DNA of 44,635 bases from Promethearchaeota archaeon. GTDB lineage: Archaea; Asgardarchaeota; Lokiarchaeia; Sigyniarchaeales; SOKP01. Where the stretch lies: contig SDNY01000014.1 in the NCBI GenBank assembly GCA_004524535.1, positions 1 through 44,635 on the forward strand, in the 5' to 3' direction. The notes beneath the pieces are model-generated. The model was not told the origin of the DNA, searched no databases, and was given only the letters and a program-made list of their open reading frames with translations. The position numbers and the translations under genes were made by a program. Positions 6,240 to 16,491 of this stretch are shown one piece after another (the stretch's first letter is position 1; every line of letters starts with the position of its first letter).

Positions 6240-7481
6240 TTAATAATCCTCATCCTTAATTTTAGTAGGTATTTCTTTAACTTGTCGAGCAAGTTCAGCT
6301 GCAAGAGCTTCACCTTTTTTTTGTATCTCGCTTTTAGGATATCCTCGAAAAACAACAGGTTCAAGAATATCCCATTTCATGTTCTTTGATAACTCATCAA
6401 AATCTTTTTGAGCACCTCCGCTCCATCCGTAAGACCCAAAAAATAAAACTTTCTTAAACCGCATTCGTTTTTTCTTTAATAAATCCAATAAATATTTCAT
6501 TGGAGGAAACATCTCATACTCATAAGTTGGTGTTCCTATAATTAATCCTGCAGATCTATACACATCCCCCAGAATAAAAGAAGGATCATCATTCGGAACT
6601 CTATAAATCTTAACAGGTACATTTTCGGAAGCAATACCTTTTAAAATACTACTCAACATTGCTCCAGTATTACCATACATACTTCCCCACACAACACATA
6701 TTTCAGGCTCCGCATAATCTTGATTATAATTCGCATAACGTATATATTTCTTGACTACAACCTCGGGCTTTCCTCTCCACACCAGACCATGGGAAGGAGC
6801 TATGGTTTTTATCTCAATATCTTTTAATGCATCAATTGCTTTTAAAACGCTTGTAGAAAACATAGCAACAATATTAGCATAATAACGTAGCATTTCTTCT
6901 TCCCAATATGGCTTATGATCATCTGGAGTCTCATCATCAAATATACTTCCCTTATGGACTCCATAGGCACCAAAGGCATCACTTGAAAAAAGTGTTTTAG
7001 TACTTTTCTCATAAGTAACCATTGTTTCAGGCCAGTGTACATTTGGAATTTCAGCAAACATAAATTCCTTCCCCCGTCCAAGGTCAAGTGTATCTCCTGT
7101 TTTTACTGTTTTAACATTATTTTTAATTTCATAAAATCCATCAACTAATTCCGCTCCCTTTGGAGTAGCGATAATTTCAGCATTGGGAGCTAGTTTATGG
7201 AGCATATATGTAAATCCTGTGTGATCAGGTTCGAGATGATTTAAAATGATATAATCAATATCTTTCACATCTACCGGAATGGATTTCATACTCTCAAGGA
7301 GTATATGATGTGCCCCTGCCCATTCACGAACTAATTCGATGATCGCAATTTTATCTCCTTTAACAATATAAGAATTTAGTGCAACTCCTTTTGGAATTGG
7401 CCAAATTCCCTCAAATAAGTCTTCGGTATGTATATTTGCTCCAATCCAATAAATGCCATCAGCTATTTTTATTGCTTGCAT
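6240..7481 (-). CDS. fprA: A-type flavodiiron protein (FprA-like)
   Basis: Beta-lactamase-fold diiron motif ILNHLEPDHTG...SSDAFGAYG...PSHGLVWRG and C-terminal flavodoxin domain VWGSMYGNTGAM. Confidence 0.93.
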   Translation of the reverse strand: MQAIKIADGIYWIGANIHTEDLFEGIWPIPKGVALNSYIVKGDKIAIIELVREWAGAHHILLESMKSIPVDVKDIDYIILNHLEPDHTGFTYMLHKLAPNAEIIATPKGAELVDGFYEIKNNVKTVKTGDTLDLGRGKEFMFAEIPNVHWPETMVTYEKSTKTLFSSDAFGAYGVHKGSIFDDETPDDHKPYWEEEMLRYYANIVAMFSTSVLKAIDALKDIEIKTIAPSHGLVWRGKPEVVVKKYIRYANYNQDYAEPEICVVWGSMYGNTGAMLSSILKGIASENVPVKIYRVPNDDPSFILGDVYRSAGLIIGTPTYEYEMFPPMKYLLDLLKKKRMRFKKVLFFGSYGWSGGAQKDFDELSKNMKWDILEPVVFRGYPKSEIQKKGEALAAELARQVKEIPTKIKDEDY

Positions 7482-8155: not shown

Positions 8156-8290
8156 TTAAATTTGTTCAAACATATCCTTTCCTACACCGCAGACTGGGCA
8201 AGTCCAATCGTCAGGTAAATCTTCAAATTTAGTTCCTTCGGCCTCCTCATCGTATATATATCCACAAGCGGTACATTCCCATTTTGCCAT
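8156..8290 (-). CDS. Rubredoxin
   Basis: Not in the ORF track (44 aa). [44 protein letters not shown], canonical CxxCGY...CPxCG. Confidence 0.95.
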
Positions 8291-8429
8291 ATTTTGCACC
8301 TAATATTTTAATTATATGGATTTTAATAACAAGAATATTAAAAAATTTAGTTCTATAATTTATAAAATCTTCTTATAATTAAATAAAAATTTATAGTTGA
8401 AACACATTATATGATTTGGAGATGATTTT

Positions 8430-8675
8430 ATGACTACTATACCTGTTAAAAAAGAACTTTTAGAGGAATTAGTTGATTTAAAATTAAAATTTTTAGATGA
8501 TGAGTCTGAAAAAATTCTGAATAAATGGAACTATAAAGCTCCCTTAAAGTTTCTTCAAGATGCAAAAGATGGTACAATTGAAGAAGCTGAAGATGATGCT
8601 ATAACATTAAAGCATCTCTTAGATCAACGAGAAGAACTACTAAATTTTAAAAAGGATTGGAATAATACAGAATAA
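8430..8675 (+). CDS. Putative antitoxin partner of the following DUF6516/TumE-like gene
   Basis: 81-aa helical, acidic ORF directly upstream of the TumE-like ORF. Confidence 0.5.
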   Translation: MTTIPVKKELLEELVDLKLKFLDDESEKILNKWNYKAPLKFLQDAKDGTIEEAEDDAITLKHLLDQREELLNFKKDWNNTE

Positions 8676-8694
8676 AGTCTTATTTTCATGTTCT

Positions 8695-9084
8695 ATGTCA
8701 AGTTTAGAAAAATTAGTTAAAGCTAAATCAATACTTGAAAAAGAACTATCTATTCAAGTAAAAAATTTAAATTTTGAACCGAAATTGGCAAGAATCCATA
8801 TAATTTTAAGAGATAATATTCAGATTTTTGTACGTTATAACAATTATGAGGAGTATAGTTATAATATAATATTCTCAAAAAAAGAATTAGATCGATGTAG
8901 ATTTGATAATTATGATGATAAATGGGAAGTTGAGTCTAAAACTCACCATTTTCATCCCAGATCTGAACAGGAGGGATTTTCAAGCCTAATGATAGGAGAT
9001 CCTGAAATTGATATTCCTAATTTATGCAAATTAATTAAATCTGGAGCTTTATTAAACAAGGAATATAGATTTAAGATTAAATAA
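8695..9084 (+). CDS. TumE/DUF6516-like putative toxin
   Basis: IFVRYNNYEEYSYNIIF...CRFDNYDDKWEVESKTHHFHPR resembles the RxDN...HHxH pattern of the TumE/DUF6516 family. Confidence 0.5.
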   Translation: MSSLEKLVKAKSILEKELSIQVKNLNFEPKLARIHIILRDNIQIFVRYNNYEEYSYNIIFSKKELDRCRFDNYDDKWEVESKTHHFHPRSEQEGFSSLMIGDPEIDIPNLCKLIKSGALLNKEYRFKIK

Positions 9085-9091
9085 TATAAAA

Positions 9092-9232
9092 TTAGTTCAG
9101 TTTTACAAACATATTCTTGTTGCATTTACATCGAGGACAGCGCCATTCTTTCTCATCTACATCTTCAAAACATTGCTTTTGCTCATCATCAATGTATAAA
9201 TAATTGCAACGTTTACATCTATATTTTGGAAT
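9092..9232 (-). CDS. Rubredoxin-like protein with apparent AUU start
   Basis: IPKYRCKRCNYLYIDDEQKQCFEDVDEKEWRCPRCKCNKNMFVKLN. In-frame stop TAA two codons before the ATA/ATT pair; GGAGGT 8 nt upstream of ATT; no ATG/GTG/TTG available before the first Cys. Confidence 0.72.
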   Translation of the reverse strand: MPKYRCKRCNYLYIDDEQKQCFEDVDEKEWRCPRCKCNKNMFVKLN

Positions 9233-9249
9233 TATTCCTTACCTCCATT

Positions 9250-10605
9250 TTATTCTTCAGGGGGTTGCCTTTGAAAATCATCTTTACAATTCCCACATTT
9301 GCATTTCCAATCCTCGGGCAAGTCTTTATATAATAAATCTTGTTTTGCCTCATCATAAACATATCCACATCCTTCACATTTCCATTTATATATGCCAACA
9401 GCCTTGCGTAGCTCATCTTCTTGAATCTCCGAATCCATATTCTTGTTAACATATGGGATGGCCTTTTTTTCCCCAAATAAGATTGCTCCTTTAAGTTTAT
9501 TATCTTTAAGGATAATTTTTTTATAACAATTCCCTTTCTTATCTACAGCTTTCAGAATTTCCCATCCTGCTCCTACTTGATCAATATCTTCGGGATCGAA
9601 CACTCCTACTGAAGTTAAATCGATTCCAACTATCTTAAGTGTATTTTTTGGTACAGTACCATGATATTCTATAGTTTTCTTACCAAGCACTGAAGCGGCA
9701 ATTATTTTAGATTGTTCTATACATGCGGGAATAATACCCCAAGTTTGATTATTAAATTCAATGCAGTCGCCAATAGCATAAACATCCTCTACACTTGTCT
9801 CTAAATATTTATTTACTATAATTCCTCGATTAGTTTCCAATCCTGCCTGTCTTGCTAAGTCTAGGGTTGCTCTAATTCCAGCTTGAATCAACACTATTTC
9901 TGCCTCAAATTCACGTCCATCTTTTAATTTAATTCCTTTTACTTTCTCGTCTCCAAGAATCTCTTCTGTAGCGGCGCTAAGAACAACCTTAATTCCCATA
10001 TCCTCAATAACTTTTTCTAACATTCCTCCGCAATCGACATCTAGTTGTCTTGGTAAGAGCCTCGGGAAAAACTCCACAACAGTAGTGTCTAATCCACAAT
10101 TTTTTATCTGTTTAGCAAGTTCAAGACCTAATAAACCGCCTCCAATAATGATCGCTTTTGAAACCTTATTTTTATCGATATATTCTTTTATTTCTAAAGC
10201 ATTATCAATATTTCTTAATGTAAAAACTCCTTTACCAATCATTTCATTTGCATTCTTAATTTGAGGAATATTTGGCATGCTACCTGTTGCGATAATTAAT
10301 TTATCATACTCAATCGGCTCACTCTCTCCCTCAAAGAACACATGCTTATGTTCAGGATGAATTCTGTTTATTTTCTTACCTAAAGTGGTCTTTATATTCT
10401 TCGTGTTATACCATTCTTGTTTAAATACAATCAGATCCTCAATAGTTACTTGCTCAGAAATCAATTCCGGAAGTTTAATTCGGGTATAATAGAGATATTT
10501 TTCAAGAGAATATATCTCGATCTCCGCCTCTTTATCAAGCATGCGAATGTTTTGAGCCGAAAAAGTTCCCGCCACATTATTTCCTATAATTACAACTTTC
10601 ATCAT
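9250..10605 (-). CDS. NADH:rubredoxin oxidoreductase-like FAD/NAD(P) protein with C-terminal rubredoxin domain
   Basis: VVIIGNNVAGTFSAQNIR, AIIIGGGLLGLELA, VYAIGDCIEF; C-terminus WKCEGCGYVYDEAKQDLLYKDLPEDWKCKCGNCKDDF. Confidence 0.92.
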   Translation of the reverse strand: MMKVVIIGNNVAGTFSAQNIRMLDKEAEIEIYSLEKYLYYTRIKLPELISEQVTIEDLIVFKQEWYNTKNIKTTLGKKINRIHPEHKHVFFEGESEPIEYDKLIIATGSMPNIPQIKNANEMIGKGVFTLRNIDNALEIKEYIDKNKVSKAIIIGGGLLGLELAKQIKNCGLDTTVVEFFPRLLPRQLDVDCGGMLEKVIEDMGIKVVLSAATEEILGDEKVKGIKLKDGREFEAEIVLIQAGIRATLDLARQAGLETNRGIIVNKYLETSVEDVYAIGDCIEFNNQTWGIIPACIEQSKIIAASVLGKKTIEYHGTVPKNTLKIVGIDLTSVGVFDPEDIDQVGAGWEILKAVDKKGNCYKKIILKDNKLKGAILFGEKKAIPYVNKNMDSEIQEDELRKAVGIYKWKCEGCGYVYDEAKQDLLYKDLPEDWKCKCGNCKDDFQRQPPEE

Positions 10606-10657: not shown

Positions 10658-10667
10658 GAACATGTTC
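10658..10667. promoter_or_regulatory. Palindromic operator candidate GAACATGTTC (in TTTGAACATGTTCGAA), NROR/cooS divergent intergenic region
   Basis: Perfect 10-bp palindrome; identical core at 14581 and 15022. An extra GTTC half-site lies just upstream (aagttctaaatttgaacatgttcgaa). Confidence 0.65.
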
Positions 10668-10776: not shown

Positions 10777-12681
10777 ATGGAAGGAGAAAGAATTTCATAT
10801 CATAAATCGGTACAAAAAGTCTATGAACGTATAAAAAAAGATGGTATGATTAATATCTGGGATCGGTTTGAAGCTCAAGGATTTGGTGGTGATCCTGATA
10901 AAAGATGTCCATTCTGCTTGAAGGGTGCTAGATGTGATTTATGCTCTAATGGTCCTTGTCGAGCAGATGTATCTATTGATAAGCGAGGGGTCTGTGGAAT
11001 CACAGCGGATGGTATGGCTATGCGGATGATGCTTCTAAGAAACGTAATGGGTACTTCCACATATCATTATCACACAGAAACTACACTAAAAACGTTAAAA
11101 GCGACAATTGAAGGAAAAACTCCGTTTAAAATCAGTGAACCGCAAAAATTAAAAAGTTTTGCAAATCGATTAGGGTTAGATACTTCTGGTTCGGATAATG
11201 ATATTGCTTTAAGATTATATAATGCTGTTAAGGAAGATTTCAATAGACCTTTTGATGAGCCCAGCAAGATTGTTGAAGCTTTAGCACCTAAAGAAAGACA
11301 GGAGGTATGGAAAAAAATTAGAATTTATCCTGGCGGTCTTTATGGTGAAATGATGTTCTCTACAAGTTCATGTTTGACGAATGTAGATGGATACTATGCA
11401 AGCTTAGCCTTAAAAGCAATGCGATTAGGAATCGCTATGGCATATCAAAGTCAAATTGTCAATGAATTTATTCAAGATATTCTTTTTAATGTTCCAAGAC
11501 CTCATAAAATGCGGGTAAATCTTGGTGTATTGGATCCTGATTATGTTAATATTATACCCAATGGACATGAACCGTTCCTTGGATTTGCAATGGTTCAATT
11601 GGCAAGAAAGCCTGAATGGCAAGAGAAAGCGAAAGCGGTTGGTGCTAAAGGCCTTCGAATTATCGCTAATATTGAAACTGGACAGGAAATGATTCAGAGA
11701 TGGGAGATGGACGATGTTTTCTATGGTTTTACGGGAAATTGGATAATGCAAGAAGCAGTTCTTGCAAGCGGATGTATTGATGCATTTGTATGCGATATGA
11801 ATTGTTCAATGCCAATCGATCCACTTTATGCTGAAAAATACAAGTTCAAATTAATTCCCGTATCAGAAGTGGTTGCCTTTGAAGGAATTGATGAAAGACT
11901 TGATTATATCCCTGAAAAAGCAGAAGAACAAGCAGCAACATTGCTTCAAATGGCAATTGATAATTTTAAAGATCGCCATGCAAGCATAGAACCTGTAATA
12001 GGATTAGATATGAATGAGGCTGTAGTTGGCTTTTCTACGGAAAGTATCGTTGAAGCATTAGGTGGATCCTTAACACCTCTTCTTGACGCAATAAAAGATG
12101 GTACTATAAGAGGCGTTGCGGGACTTGTTTCTTGTACAAGTCTTAGAGATAAGGGTCAAGATGTACATACTGTTGCTGTAGCTAAAGAATTAATTAAAAG
12201 AGATGTCTTGGTGCTGTCTATGGGATGTGGAAATGGGGGAGTACAAGTCGCAGGATTATGTTCTCCAGAAGCAAAAGATTTAGCAGGACCTGGTCTCAAG
12301 GCTCTTTGCGAAAAATTGGGCACACCTCCAGTCCTAAGTTATGGAACATGTACGGATACAGGACGGGTGGCTGATCTCATTGCCGCTGTTTCAGATGCAC
12401 TTGGAGGTGTTCCAATCCCTGATTTGCCTGTTGTTGCTGTCGCACCAGAATATATGGAGCAAAAAGCAACTATTGATGCGATTTTTGCCCTCGCGTTTGG
12501 ACTTTACACCTATGTGAATCCTGTTCCTACGGTTACAGGAGGACCAGATTTAGTCAAATTATTAACTGTTGACTGTAAAGATGTTACTGGTGGAATATTA
12601 CATGTTGAAACTGATACGATTCAAGCTGTTGATGCAATGTTAGAACACATTGAAGCAAATCGTAAGAAGTTGGGATTATGA
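10777..12681 (+). CDS. cooS: CooS-family carbon monoxide dehydrogenase scaffold protein with atypical active site (HCP-like ligand pattern)
   Basis: RCPFCLKGARCDLCSNGPCR...NIIPNGHEPFLG...VCDMNCSMP...GLVSCTSL...SMGCGNGG...SYGTCTDTGR...EQKA; full-length alignment by eye to CODH-II. Confidence 0.9.
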   Translation: MEGERISYHKSVQKVYERIKKDGMINIWDRFEAQGFGGDPDKRCPFCLKGARCDLCSNGPCRADVSIDKRGVCGITADGMAMRMMLLRNVMGTSTYHYHTETTLKTLKATIEGKTPFKISEPQKLKSFANRLGLDTSGSDNDIALRLYNAVKEDFNRPFDEPSKIVEALAPKERQEVWKKIRIYPGGLYGEMMFSTSSCLTNVDGYYASLALKAMRLGIAMAYQSQIVNEFIQDILFNVPRPHKMRVNLGVLDPDYVNIIPNGHEPFLGFAMVQLARKPEWQEKAKAVGAKGLRIIANIETGQEMIQRWEMDDVFYGFTGNWIMQEAVLASGCIDAFVCDMNCSMPIDPLYAEKYKFKLIPVSEVVAFEGIDERLDYIPEKAEEQAATLLQMAIDNFKDRHASIEPVIGLDMNEAVVGFSTESIVEALGGSLTPLLDAIKDGTIRGVAGLVSCTSLRDKGQDVHTVAVAKELIKRDVLVLSMGCGNGGVQVAGLCSPEAKDLAGPGLKALCEKLGTPPVLSYGTCTDTGRVADLIAAVSDALGGVPIPDLPVVAVAPEYMEQKATIDAIFALAFGLYTYVNPVPTVTGGPDLVKLLTVDCKDVTGGILHVETDTIQAVDAMLEHIEANRKKLGL

Positions 12682-12715: not shown

Positions 12716-13033
12716 ATGGAAGTAGCTTCTATTAAAAATCTGAATAGTTTGATTGAATATCAAGAGAAGTCAGTTGTGAGTAAAACTTTAATCGATAAGA
12801 AAGTTGGTACTGTCACCCTTTTTGCTTTTGATAAAGATCAAGGATTAAGCGAACATACAACTCCTTTTGATGCACTTGTTTACATTTTTGATGGTGAAGC
12901 AGAAATTACAATTAGTGGCAAACCATACCATCTTAAAAAAGATCAAATGCTTATTATGCCCGCAAATGATCCTCACGCACTCAGAGCAATAGAGAAATAT
13001 AAAATGATGCTCATAATGATTAAATCTGATTAA
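12716..13033 (+). CDS. Cupin domain protein
   Basis: LSEHTTPFDALVYIFDGEAEITISGKPYHLKKDQMLIMPANDPHAL cupin motifs. Confidence 0.9.
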   Translation: MEVASIKNLNSLIEYQEKSVVSKTLIDKKVGTVTLFAFDKDQGLSEHTTPFDALVYIFDGEAEITISGKPYHLKKDQMLIMPANDPHALRAIEKYKMMLIMIKSD

Positions 13034-13145: not shown

Positions 13146-13520
13146 ATGGTAAAAGAAGTTTATAAATGTAATAACTGCGGGACGGTCCTTTTCGCTACTG
13201 CTGACTATATAGAGTGTTGTAAACAAGAAATGAAGTTATTAGAACCAAAAACAGCAGATTGGAAAGGTGAAAAACATGTTCCAAAGATTACAATTGATGG
13301 CAATAACGTAACTGTTGATGTTGGAATCAGTATGGGAGCGCCACACCCAATGACCCCTGAACACTCGATTCAATGGATTAACTTAATAGGTAATGACTTC
13401 TACGAAAAGAAAAATTTAAAACCGGGGGATGAACCAAAAGCAACATTCGTAGTTGCGAATACAGACGGACTTTGGGCACGGGAATATTGTAATCTCCATG
13501 GTTTATGGAAGTCATCTTAA
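13146..13520 (+). CDS. dfx: Desulfoferrodoxin / superoxide reductase, second paralogue
   Basis: CNNCGT...ECCKQ and TADWKGEKHVPKITIDGNNVTVDVGIS...REYCNLHGLWKSS, nearly identical to 2484..2873 in blocks. Confidence 0.92.
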   Translation: MVKEVYKCNNCGTVLFATADYIECCKQEMKLLEPKTADWKGEKHVPKITIDGNNVTVDVGISMGAPHPMTPEHSIQWINLIGNDFYEKKNLKPGDEPKATFVVANTDGLWAREYCNLHGLWKSS

Positions 13521-13664: not shown

Positions 13665-14519
13665 TCATTTTTTTTGTAATTTTATTGCATCTACGGGACA
13701 AATATCTACACACCTATTACAATAATAACACTCCCCCTTAGAACTATTCTTGTAGCTTTCTTGTGTAGGGCAAATTTTTTCACATAAACCACAATCAGTG
13801 CAAGCTTCTGTTCGACAGTATTTTAACTTACTAAATCGACTTGTAAATCCAGCTAAAGCGCCAAATGGACAAAGTAATCTACACCAAGGTCTATATATAA
13901 AAATACTCAAAACCATTACTGAAATTAACGAAATTAACGGAATTAAGAGCACCATTGCTAAAGGATCTCGGAAAAACGAATATCCTACAAAGGGGTTGAG
14001 TAATTGTAATAAAGCAATATTCCACACTACTATTATTAAAATTACAACTGCAAAAAACGACCATCTAATGATTCTTGCAGTTTTCTCTGATATATCTATT
14101 TTAAACTTTATATTCTTTTGTCCCTTGATACTTGATTTAAATTTTATTTTTGATATTAACTCTTGAACCGCACCAACAGGACAAGCATATCCACAAAATA
14201 TCCGACCAAAGACTAATGTTGTTAATAGTAAGATAATTAATACAATAATCATTGGGATAAGAGAGGTTATAATAGCATTTCCTCCAAGAGCACTCAAAAT
14301 TTGCTGAATTGGCATAACTACATTTGGGATTCCCCCTAATATTATGCCTCCTATGATAATTGATATTAAGTAGATTATTATACTTTTTTTCTTAGTAATC
14401 TTTTGCTTATAAATTAAAACTATAGCTAATGCACTGATAACTATCCAAAATATAAACATTGGTAAAGCAGTTATCATATTTAGTTGCGTGGTGTTATTTT
14501 GATTTATCATAAACATCAC
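13665..14519 (-). CDS. NapH/polyferredoxin-type membrane 4Fe-4S protein
   Basis: TM segments; FGRIFCGYACPVGAVQE, YRPWCRLLCPFGA and two 4Fe-4S motifs CTDCGLCEKICP, CYYCNRCVDICPVDA. Confidence 0.88.
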   Translation of the reverse strand: MMFMINQNNTTQLNMITALPMFIFWIVISALAIVLIYKQKITKKKSIIIYLISIIIGGIILGGIPNVVMPIQQILSALGGNAIITSLIPMIIVLIILLLTTLVFGRIFCGYACPVGAVQELISKIKFKSSIKGQKNIKFKIDISEKTARIIRWSFFAVVILIIVVWNIALLQLLNPFVGYSFFRDPLAMVLLIPLISLISVMVLSIFIYRPWCRLLCPFGALAGFTSRFSKLKYCRTEACTDCGLCEKICPTQESYKNSSKGECYYCNRCVDICPVDAIKLQKK

Positions 14520-14580: not shown

Positions 14581-14590
14581 GAACATGTTC
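14581..14590. promoter_or_regulatory. Palindromic operator candidate GAACATGTTC, NapH-like/cupin divergent intergenic region
   Basis: Perfect repeat of the palindrome at 10658, between genes starting at 14519 (-) and 14643 (+). Confidence 0.65.
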
Positions 14591-14642: not shown

Positions 14643-14993
14643 ATGGTGATAATCATTAAAATTATTAATGTTGATGAAGTAGATATTGCGGACACTCCCC
14701 ACAAAGTAGATGTAAGAAAATTAATTTCATATGAACATGCTACTATTGTTCGCATTGAGTTAAAACCAGGAGAGGCATTAAAAATGCATGTTACTCCTGT
14801 TGATGTTTGTTTTTTCATTTTGGAGGGTGAGGGAATAGTACAAATTGGGAAAGAAAAAGAAATTGTCAAAAAAAACAAGCTTATTTTTAGTCCTGCGAAA
14901 ATACCACACACGTTAATGAATGAATCAGATGCCAATTTCAGTTTTTTAGTATTAAAAACTCCCACACCTACAAGTGAAACAAAAATGCTTTAA
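14643..14993 (+). CDS. Cupin domain protein
   Basis: VRIELKPGEALKMHVTPVDVCFFILEGEGIVQIGKEKEIVKKNKLIFSPAKIPH. Confidence 0.88.
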   Translation: MVIIIKIINVDEVDIADTPHKVDVRKLISYEHATIVRIELKPGEALKMHVTPVDVCFFILEGEGIVQIGKEKEIVKKNKLIFSPAKIPHTLMNESDANFSFLVLKTPTPTSETKML

Positions 14994-15021: not shown

Positions 15022-15031
15022 GAACATGTTC
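15022..15031. promoter_or_regulatory. Palindromic operator candidate GAACATGTTC upstream of the ferredoxin-type gene
   Basis: Third perfect copy, 39 bp before the ATG at 15071. Confidence 0.65.
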
Positions 15032-15070: not shown

Positions 15071-15835
15071 ATGACTGAAGCAAAGCAAGTAAAAAAAGTC
15101 GTAAGAAAGATAATCGAAATTGATGAGGATTTATGTACTGGATGTGGGAAATGTGTGACCTCGTGCGCAGAAGGAGCTTTAGCAATTATCGATGGAAAGG
15201 CGAAAGTTATAAATGATGTCTTCTGTGATGGTCTGGGAGCTTGTATCGGGGAATGCCCTGAAGATGCATTAAGAATAATTGAACGAGAAGCAGCAGAATT
15301 CGATGAGGAGGCTGTGGAAGAATATTTAGAAAAGCTTAAAGAAAATAAATCATCAATCCAACAATCTACACACTCTCACCAATGCAATTGTCCTTCTTCT
15401 CAGCCAATGGTGTTTGAGGGTAAATGGGAAGAAACCGAAATCACAGGAGATATTCCATCTGCATTGAGACAATGGCCAACAAAACTAACTTTAGTTAATC
15501 CCAACGCACCATACTTCAATAATAAGGAATTAGTAATCGCCTCAGATTGTTCGCCGTTTGCCTATGGTGATTTTCACAGAAAAATCTTGAGAGGGAAGCC
15601 ATTGGTAACAGTCTGCCCCATGTTAGGTCTTGGAGAAGTCGAGTTGGAAAAATTGGAGCAGATATTGAAATTGAATCCTATTGAAAACATTCAGCTGGTG
15701 TTAATGGAAGTTCCTTGCTGTCAAAAAATTAATATGTTTTTGGATCCGATATTGCAAACGATTGGCCGTAAGATATTTGTTGAGAAGACCATAATTGGTA
15801 GAGATGGTTCAATTATTAAAAGCCAGAATGGCTAA
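15071..15835 (+). CDS. 4Fe-4S dicluster ferredoxin-type protein with C-terminal Cys-containing domain
   Basis: CTGCGKCVTSCAEGAL...CDGLGACIGECPEDAL; C-terminal DCSPFAYGDFH...CPMLG...VPCCQKIN. Confidence 0.88.
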   Translation: MTEAKQVKKVVRKIIEIDEDLCTGCGKCVTSCAEGALAIIDGKAKVINDVFCDGLGACIGECPEDALRIIEREAAEFDEEAVEEYLEKLKENKSSIQQSTHSHQCNCPSSQPMVFEGKWEETEITGDIPSALRQWPTKLTLVNPNAPYFNNKELVIASDCSPFAYGDFHRKILRGKPLVTVCPMLGLGEVELEKLEQILKLNPIENIQLVLMEVPCCQKINMFLDPILQTIGRKIFVEKTIIGRDGSIIKSQNG

Positions 15836-16491
15836 ATTTTCAAGACAACCTTTTTTTTAATAATTTTTCTTAGCATAACTGATAAGGCAGATTTAGATTT
15901 TCCCAATTCATTAGCTAATTCTTCTAAGGAGATTTTTCGAGGAACTTCAAAAAATCCTGAATTAATTGCTTTTTCTAAAATTTTATCTTCCTCAAAACTT
16001 AATTTAGAACTAGGATCATCAATCTCATAAGGAGAATTACCAATTCTTAATAATTCAAAATCAATTCCTTTATTCTCAAAAAGAGTTAATAATTCATCAA
16101 TTCTTTTCCTCGTTGAAATTAGCTTCCAATAAGCATAGCCCTCCTTGACCTTAACCGGGAAATTTACTAAAACTCCGTATTTTATTACTCCATACAACAA
16201 ATATGGATCTTTTGTTTTCACATTAATTTTAACTTTATTTTCTTCTTTTTCTAAAATACTGAATTCAAAAACTGACCTGTGATTTCTAATTTCTTTAATA
16301 ATTGAATTAATATCATAATGCATTATTTCAACAATGGCATTTCCAATCGATTTTTCTAAATCATATGGTAAAAAATATAAAATTTCCATCTTTACATCAT
16401 GAAATTGACTAAATATATTAGAAAACCATAAATCGACAGGAAACTTGATTTTAATTCTTGCTAAACTTGTTTTATTTGAATCCATTTTCAA
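15832..16491 (-). CDS. HTH_10 (bacterio-opsin activator type) transcriptional regulator
   Basis: C-terminal AINSGFFEVPRKISLEELANELGKSKSALSVMLRKIIKKKV matches the HTH_10 consensus. Confidence 0.8.
   Translation of the reverse strand: MKMDSNKTSLARIKIKFPVDLWFSNIFSQFHDVKMEILYFLPYDLEKSIGNAIVEIMHYDINSIIKEIRNHRSVFEFSILEKEENKVKINVKTKDPYLLYGVIKYGVLVNFPVKVKEGYAYWKLISTRKRIDELLTLFENKGIDFELLRIGNSPYEIDDPSSKLSFEEDKILEKAINSGFFEVPRKISLEELANELGKSKSALSVMLRKIIKKKVVLKI

Follow-up and report, generated by a model that had tools for sequence, protein, structure and literature searches.

A CooS-V-type enzyme, predicted to hold a Ni-free hybrid cluster, probably stands in for HCP in a Lokiarchaeal regulon

We analysed a 44,635-nucleotide stretch of DNA from a Promethearchaeota archaeon of the Lokiarchaeia (contig SDNY01000014.1 of assembly GCA_004524535.1; the whole stretch is called the window here) and found a gene, cooS-V, whose product is probably a Ni-free hybrid-cluster enzyme of the CooS-V type that reduces a small, probably nitrogenous, oxidised substrate and replaces the hybrid cluster protein (HCP) in a regulon marked by the palindrome GAACATGTTC. 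The type of enzyme is published; what we add is its gene context, namely the set of genes that carry GAACATGTTC and neighbours like those of hcp. For CooS-V and clade D 'CODHs', a conserved, operator-defined gene set common with hcp neighbourhoods gives a specific, testable physiological role. This gene set also names likely electron donors for assays, in which earlier work used methyl viologen, and it illustrates how two scaffolds can converge on one cluster and one genomic niche.

The cooS-V reading frame retains all of the C-cluster motifs that an initial annotation of the sequence had listed: GHEP (His264), VCDMNC (Cys343), LVSC (Cys453), MGC (Cys484) and YGTC (Cys525). The same annotation had placed a glutamate exactly at the position of Cys295 of CODH-II and had read MEQKA as the E-x-K of HCP. 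Both assignments were borne out by an alignment of 124 CooS proteins, comprising 92 with Glu in the Cys295 column and 32 canonical proteins with Cys. Glu300 of the window protein, within ANIETGQE, aligns with Cys in all 32 canonical sequences, and MEQKA supplies Glu561-x-Lys563. Tyr96 replaces the catalytic acid–base His. The top solved relative of the protein was CooS-V of Carboxydothermus hydrogenoformans (7b7q; phmmer, 689 bits, E = 4e-206), with the runner-up, 6t7j, far behind at 412 bits. The protein scored 730 bits against TIGR01702 (cut-off, 478 bits) and 24.3 bits against the HCP family TIGR01703, which is below the cut-off of 360.8 bits. An AF2 model, a check that the initial annotation had suggested, was built from 22 sequences (pTM 0.86, mean pLDDT 80.8, with low confidence in the Fe–S-binding N-terminal loop); the predicted fold matched CooS-V first (7b7q/7b9a; TM 0.93, 51% identity).

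Table 1. Features of the window, numbered from its first nucleotide
Feature	Position	Strand	Basis
cooS-V-type gene, 634 aa, ATG start	10777..12681	+	ORF, phmmer, TIGR01702, alignment, tree, AF2
CxxC C44, C47 (type III D-cluster; [2Fe-2S] in CooS-V) and B-cluster C53, C56, C61, C73	10906..10995	+	
Glu300, GAA codon; Cys295 position of CODH-II, Glu295 of CooS-V	11674..11676	+	Alignment column
MEQKA: Glu561 (Glu556 ligand of CooS-V, Glu494 of D. vulgaris HCP) and Lys563	12454..12468	+	
Flavodiiron protein, FprA type	6240..7481	-	
Rubredoxin	8156..8299	-	ORF; 98%-identical L004 copy matches PF00301
NADH:rubredoxin reductase (NirB/NorW-like flavoprotein), C-terminal rubredoxin-like domain, divergent from cooS-V	9250..10605	-	
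Operator-like palindrome GAACATGTTC, common to the divergent NADH:rubredoxin reductase gene and cooS-V	10658..10667		
Second small cupin, directly downstream of cooS-V	12716..13033	+	
Desulfoferrodoxin / superoxide reductase	13146..13520	+	
NapH-like membrane polyferredoxin with operator-like site	13665..14519	-	
GAACATGTTC between NapH-like gene and cupin	14581..14590		
Cupin with operator-like site; homologue flanks hcp in Halobacteriota	14643..14993	+	
GAACATGTTC ahead of FrdX-like ferredoxin gene	15022..15031		
FrdX-like ferredoxin, 2x[4Fe-4S] and ~130-aa C-terminal domain	15071..15835	+	
HTH_10 (PF04967) regulator, convergent with ferredoxin gene	15832..16491	-	

The window protein belongs to a published kind of enzyme, the CooS-V type of clade D structural group D-1, because CooS-V and group D-1 already carry the same features. 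Inoue et al. (PMC6344411) defined the group by these features and pointed out the HCP-like Glu. The structure of C. hydrogenoformans CooS-V contains a Ni-free [4Fe-3S-nO] cluster, with no Ni signal, that is held by His259, Glu295, Cys338, Cys449, Cys480, Cys521 and Glu556 (Jeoung et al., PMC9311411), which confirms the Fe–S–O hybrid-like cluster that the initial annotation had ascribed to CODH-V. By analogy with this 51%-identical homologue, we infer a Ni-free Fe–S–O hybrid cluster in the window protein. C. hydrogenoformans CooS-V neither oxidised CO nor reduced CO2, its reduction of NO could not be told from background, and it reduced hydroxylamine very slowly (0.13 per s; PMC9311411). The proposal of a Ni-independent enzyme that does not oxidise CO thus gains support from its nearest characterised homologue, which has the same ligands, while the O2, ROS, RNS or NO chemistry proposed along with it is not established. 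A 2026 survey leaves such sequences out of Ni-CODH (PMC13240472), and another recent survey reports no clear genomic pattern or gene context for clade D (PMC13056359).

Glutamate at the Cys295 site is far from a chance substitution, because all 92 sequences that have it also carry E-x-K, Tyr at the position of the acid–base His and a CxxC D-cluster. His264, Cys343, Cys453, Cys484 and Cys525 are kept in every one of them as well. Among the 32 Cys295 sequences, the residue aligned with Glu561 is Ser, Thr or His and the one aligned with Tyr96 is His; the CxxC D-cluster is present in 10 of them. The Glu295 sequences form a single clade with support of 100, and C. hydrogenoformans CooS-V falls outside the subclade of the window protein. 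This subclade includes Asgard archaea, Chloroflexota, Desulfobacterota, WOR-3, Actinomycetota and Methanolobus; the members that we fetched are 76–98% identical to the window protein. Glu295 was described as 'unique only in Ch CODH-V' in the alignment of one paper (PMC10502027). This fails more widely, because GTDB genomes contain 417 related stretches and Glu occupies the Cys295 site in 80 of the 80 loci fetched.

The initial annotation had also noted a detoxification neighbourhood, and redox and detoxification genes do abound around cooS-V (Table 1). Other neighbours of cooS-V encode OsmC, desulfoferrodoxins, rubrerythrins, an FMN reductase-like flavoprotein, glutaredoxin and ferredoxin–thioredoxin reductase. 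CooC, CooF and ACS were not found among the genes annotated in about 0.4–19.4 kb of the window. In 11 fetched loci, all of them Lokiarchaeal, the NADH:rubredoxin reductase gene diverges from cooS-V at a distance of no more than 2.5 kb. The FrdX-like ferredoxin gene, a label that rests on architecture and on position beside hcp rather than on published FrdX sequences, lies within 2.5 kb of cooS-V and always in the same direction in 22 fetched loci, which come from Asgard archaea, Thermoplasmata, Methanofastidiosa, Methanophagales, WOR-3 and Chloroflexota. Two smaller features were seen in the redox region of the window. Directly downstream of the NADH:rubredoxin reductase gene is a rubredoxin-like reading frame (CKRC...CPRC; 9092–9238, minus strand) without a clear start codon. 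A small gene pair (8430–9084, plus strand) is possibly a toxin–antitoxin module, because its second protein matches the toxin TumE (PF20126).

The palindrome GAACATGTTC has seven copies in 3.66 Mb, and three of these lie inside 4.4 kb of the window, all in promoter regions; about 0.00015 such triples would be expected if the seven sites fell at random. In Lokiarchaea, 14 of 22 cooS-V loci conserve the site 81–133 bp ahead of the gene, and one-mismatch versions occur at the cooS-V loci L010 and L011. Across 41 genomes of the family, we counted 215 sites as against 94 for reversed-pattern controls (Wilcoxon p = 4e-7). Inspection of nine genomes gave 48 sites, of which 25 were intergenic (including one in L133 that falls under an over-long ferredoxin ORF) and 23 lay inside ORFs; the latter were treated as background, with the reversed-pattern control giving 19 in the same nine genomes. 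All but one of the 25 intergenic sites precede cooS-V or the genes for NADH:rubredoxin reductase, ferredoxin, the cupin at 14643, the NapH-like protein or DUF166. We defined these gene categories from the window genome before turning to the eight others, where 19 of 20 sites fit them. The HTH_10 protein is possibly the reader of GAACATGTTC, because its gene is convergent with the Lokiarchaeal ferredoxin gene wherever the ferredoxin was found with enough flank.

Genes for DUF166 (PF02593; for example, L086:2034–2933, minus strand) are the main members of the GAACATGTTC set away from the cooS-V locus. A short ORF after a GAACATGTTC site (L085:3101–3382) is 74% homologous to the start of DUF166; it lies near the end of its contig and looks like a copy that has been truncated or frameshifted. 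A 72-aa CxxC protein behind GAACATGTTC in L125 was considered as a member of TIGR03980 ('hybrid cluster protein-associated') and rejected, as the match was too weak (E = 0.014, no Pfam match).

The genes marked by GAACATGTTC have counterparts beside hcp. In Desulfobacterota, 18 of 30 hcp loci have a homologue of the window ferredoxin no more than 1.5 kb from hcp, mostly at 40–50% identity. Among 31 hcp loci of Halobacteriota, we found homologues of the cupins in 8 (7 for the cupin at 14643, with all matches counted), of rubredoxin in 5, of the flavodiiron protein in 4, of ferredoxin–thioredoxin reductase in 3 and of the ferredoxin in 2. Homologues of the ferredoxin or cupin were found beside none of 30 canonical Cys295 CODH genes, and none of the sampled hcp loci had DUF166 as a neighbour. 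DUF166 could conceivably correspond to the member of the HcpR regulon described as a 'hypothetical protein conserved in Archaea'. It is known that hcp and FrdX form operons under HcpR (PMC1274295, PMC545781) and that a cupin–hcp operon ranks among those that NO induces most in D. desulfuricans (PMC5701242). The window genome encodes two prismane-family proteins, the cooS-V product and a CdhA-type CODH (contig C100), and neither is an HCP; likewise, no full HCP was present in 41 genomes of the Loki family, in which every prismane match was of the CooS or CdhA type. CooS-V therefore appears to fill the slot of HCP in Lokiarchaea, given this absence and the match of the GAACATGTTC gene set to hcp neighbourhoods. 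Two observations count against such a replacement: of 42 other CooS-V genomes, 9 also encode HCP, and in Desulfobacterota, where hcp is common, none of the E295 CooS loci sampled adjoins the ferredoxin. HCP occurs in 1 of 15 genomes with the ferredoxin beside cooS-V versus 8 of 27 without it, a difference that is suggestive only. In loci from WOR-3 and other lineages (L028, L056, L077 and L081), a regulator of the Rrf2 family, to which the NO sensor NsrR belongs, lies just upstream of cooS-V.

We considered whether the stress concerned could be oxidative, because rubrerythrins, desulfoferrodoxins, a flavodiiron protein and OsmC share this region. The hybrid-cluster protein would then be a reductase of O2 or peroxide, or a sensor, fed by rubredoxin, rather than an RNS enzyme. 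The nearby rubredoxins and the operator-like GAACATGTTC shared with the divergent NADH:rubredoxin reductase gene are consistent with this, as is the link between a [2Fe-2S] D-cluster and O2 tolerance (PMC9311411). However, no exact GAACATGTTC site accompanies the window's genes for superoxide reductase, rubrerythrin and the flavodiiron protein, and the genes that do carry it (ferredoxin, cupin and polyferredoxin) largely match hcp neighbourhoods, which makes an oxidative role unlikely. The genomic context favours a role in nitrosative stress like that of HCP over a general role against ROS.

We think it improbable that the protein is a redox or CO sensor or regulator with little turnover, auxiliary to the CdhA-type CODH of the genome. 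The cluster of C. hydrogenoformans CooS-V morphs reversibly with redox state and the enzyme has very low activity (PMC9311411), and a redox-sensing auxiliary role has been put forward for clades C and D (PMC13056359). By contrast, a reductase would account for the conserved linkage to the electron carriers ferredoxin and NADH:rubredoxin reductase, the substrate channel of CooS-V is open only in the reduced state (PMC9311411) and the annotated neighbours (about 0.4–19.4 kb) include no genes of CO metabolism. That the protein is an ordinary Ni,Fe-CODH that tolerates the ligand swap and still oxidises CO, as its TIGR01702 score would have it annotated, is highly improbable given the covariation of E295 with E-x-K and Tyr across 92 sequences, the lack of Ni and CO oxidation in CooS-V and the Ni-deficient, CO-inactive C295E variant of CODH-II (PMC9311411).

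For the hybrid-cluster reductase that we favour, we propose a homodimeric CODH scaffold in which the exchanges of Cys295 for Glu and of His for Tyr, together with the Glu of E-x-K, would allow a Ni-free Fe–S–O hybrid cluster to form at the active site. NADH or reduced ferredoxin would be the source of electrons, and the FrdX-like ferredoxin and/or rubredoxin, the latter reduced by the divergent NADH:rubredoxin reductase, would be the most likely carriers. Electrons would cross the bridging [2Fe-2S] D-cluster and the [4Fe-4S] B-cluster to the hybrid cluster, which may reduce NO, hydroxylamine or a related RNS. In this way cooS-V would stand in for hcp in a Lokiarchaeal stress regulon marked by GAACATGTTC and possibly read by HTH_10. 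The biochemistry of the homologue counts against an RNS substrate: in addition to the undetected NO activity and slow turnover of hydroxylamine, the potentials of its cluster lie about 300 mV lower than in E. coli HCP, from which the authors infer a different physiological role (PMC9311411).

In two relatives, G016 (L070/L284) and G004 (L283; the same genus as the window), cooS-V contains a 32-nt insert between the codons for Tyr559 and Met560, directly before MEQKA (L070:9678–9709; L284:3022–3053; L283, about 1472–1503 on the minus strand). It was seen in 2 of 65 genomes of the family. Although the two inserts have only 16 of 32 bases in common, against 80% identity in exon 1 of their genes, they fold alike, with compensatory changes in the stems. 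The fold fits an archaeal bulge–helix–bulge (BHB) intron, with an outer helix GCTCCA/TGGAGC, two 3-nt bulges (ATA and CAA/TAA) and a central 4-bp helix that pairs exon 1 with the 3' part of the intron; this helix is GAAT/GTTC in L283 (four pairs, one of them G-U) and GAAT/GCTT in L070 (one A.C mismatch). If each bulge is cut after its second base, the frame is restored to give a 634-aa protein that is 87–88% identical to that of the window. The cbf5 mRNA of Crenarchaeota is a known archaeal example with a BHB intron (PMC2738675); the literature that we searched contained no case in an Asgard mRNA, which is no proof of absence. If spliced, the insert would be a protein-gene intron in Asgard archaea at a catalytic motif.

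Taken as a whole, we put forward a broader picture only tentatively, judging it somewhat less probable than its opposite: a CODH-derived enzyme of Asgard archaea replaced HCP in an undescribed nitrosative regulon under GAACATGTTC, comprising cooS-V, the ferredoxin, cupin, polyferredoxin, NADH:rubredoxin reductase and DUF166 and perhaps acting via HTH_10, and a few relatives must also splice a 32-nt BHB intron from the mRNA ahead of MEQKA.

The window protein shares the scaffold, the C-cluster His and four Cys of canonical Ni,Fe-CODHs (CODH-II and D. vulgaris CODH), but differs from them in the change of Cys295 to Glu and of His93 to Tyr, in its E-x-K and in a locus without CooC or ACS among the genes annotated over about 0.4–19.4 kb. 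It is like CooS-V in six cluster-ligand positions, the E-x-K Glu, the Tyr, the CxxC D-cluster, the B-cluster and the fold, whereas it belongs to a separate, widespread subclade with a context of FrdX-like ferredoxin, cupin and NADH:rubredoxin reductase. With HCP (classes I–III) it has in common the Glu at the Cys295-equivalent site, the E-x-K Glu and equivalent neighbours (FrdX-like ferredoxin, cupin, flavodiiron protein and rubredoxin), although the two are only distantly related, the window protein has a CODH scaffold with a D-cluster and the persulfide position differs in CooS-V. The HcpR/hcp–frdX regulon of Desulfovibrio, Geobacter and Clostridium similarly joins a hybrid-cluster enzyme to an FrdX-like ferredoxin and a polyferredoxin under common regulation. 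In Lokiarchaea, by contrast, CooS-V appears in place of hcp, the conserved palindrome, GAACATGTTC, differs from TGTGA-N6-TCACA and TTGAC-N4-GTCAA, and the linked regulator is of the HTH_10 family instead of CRP/FNR.
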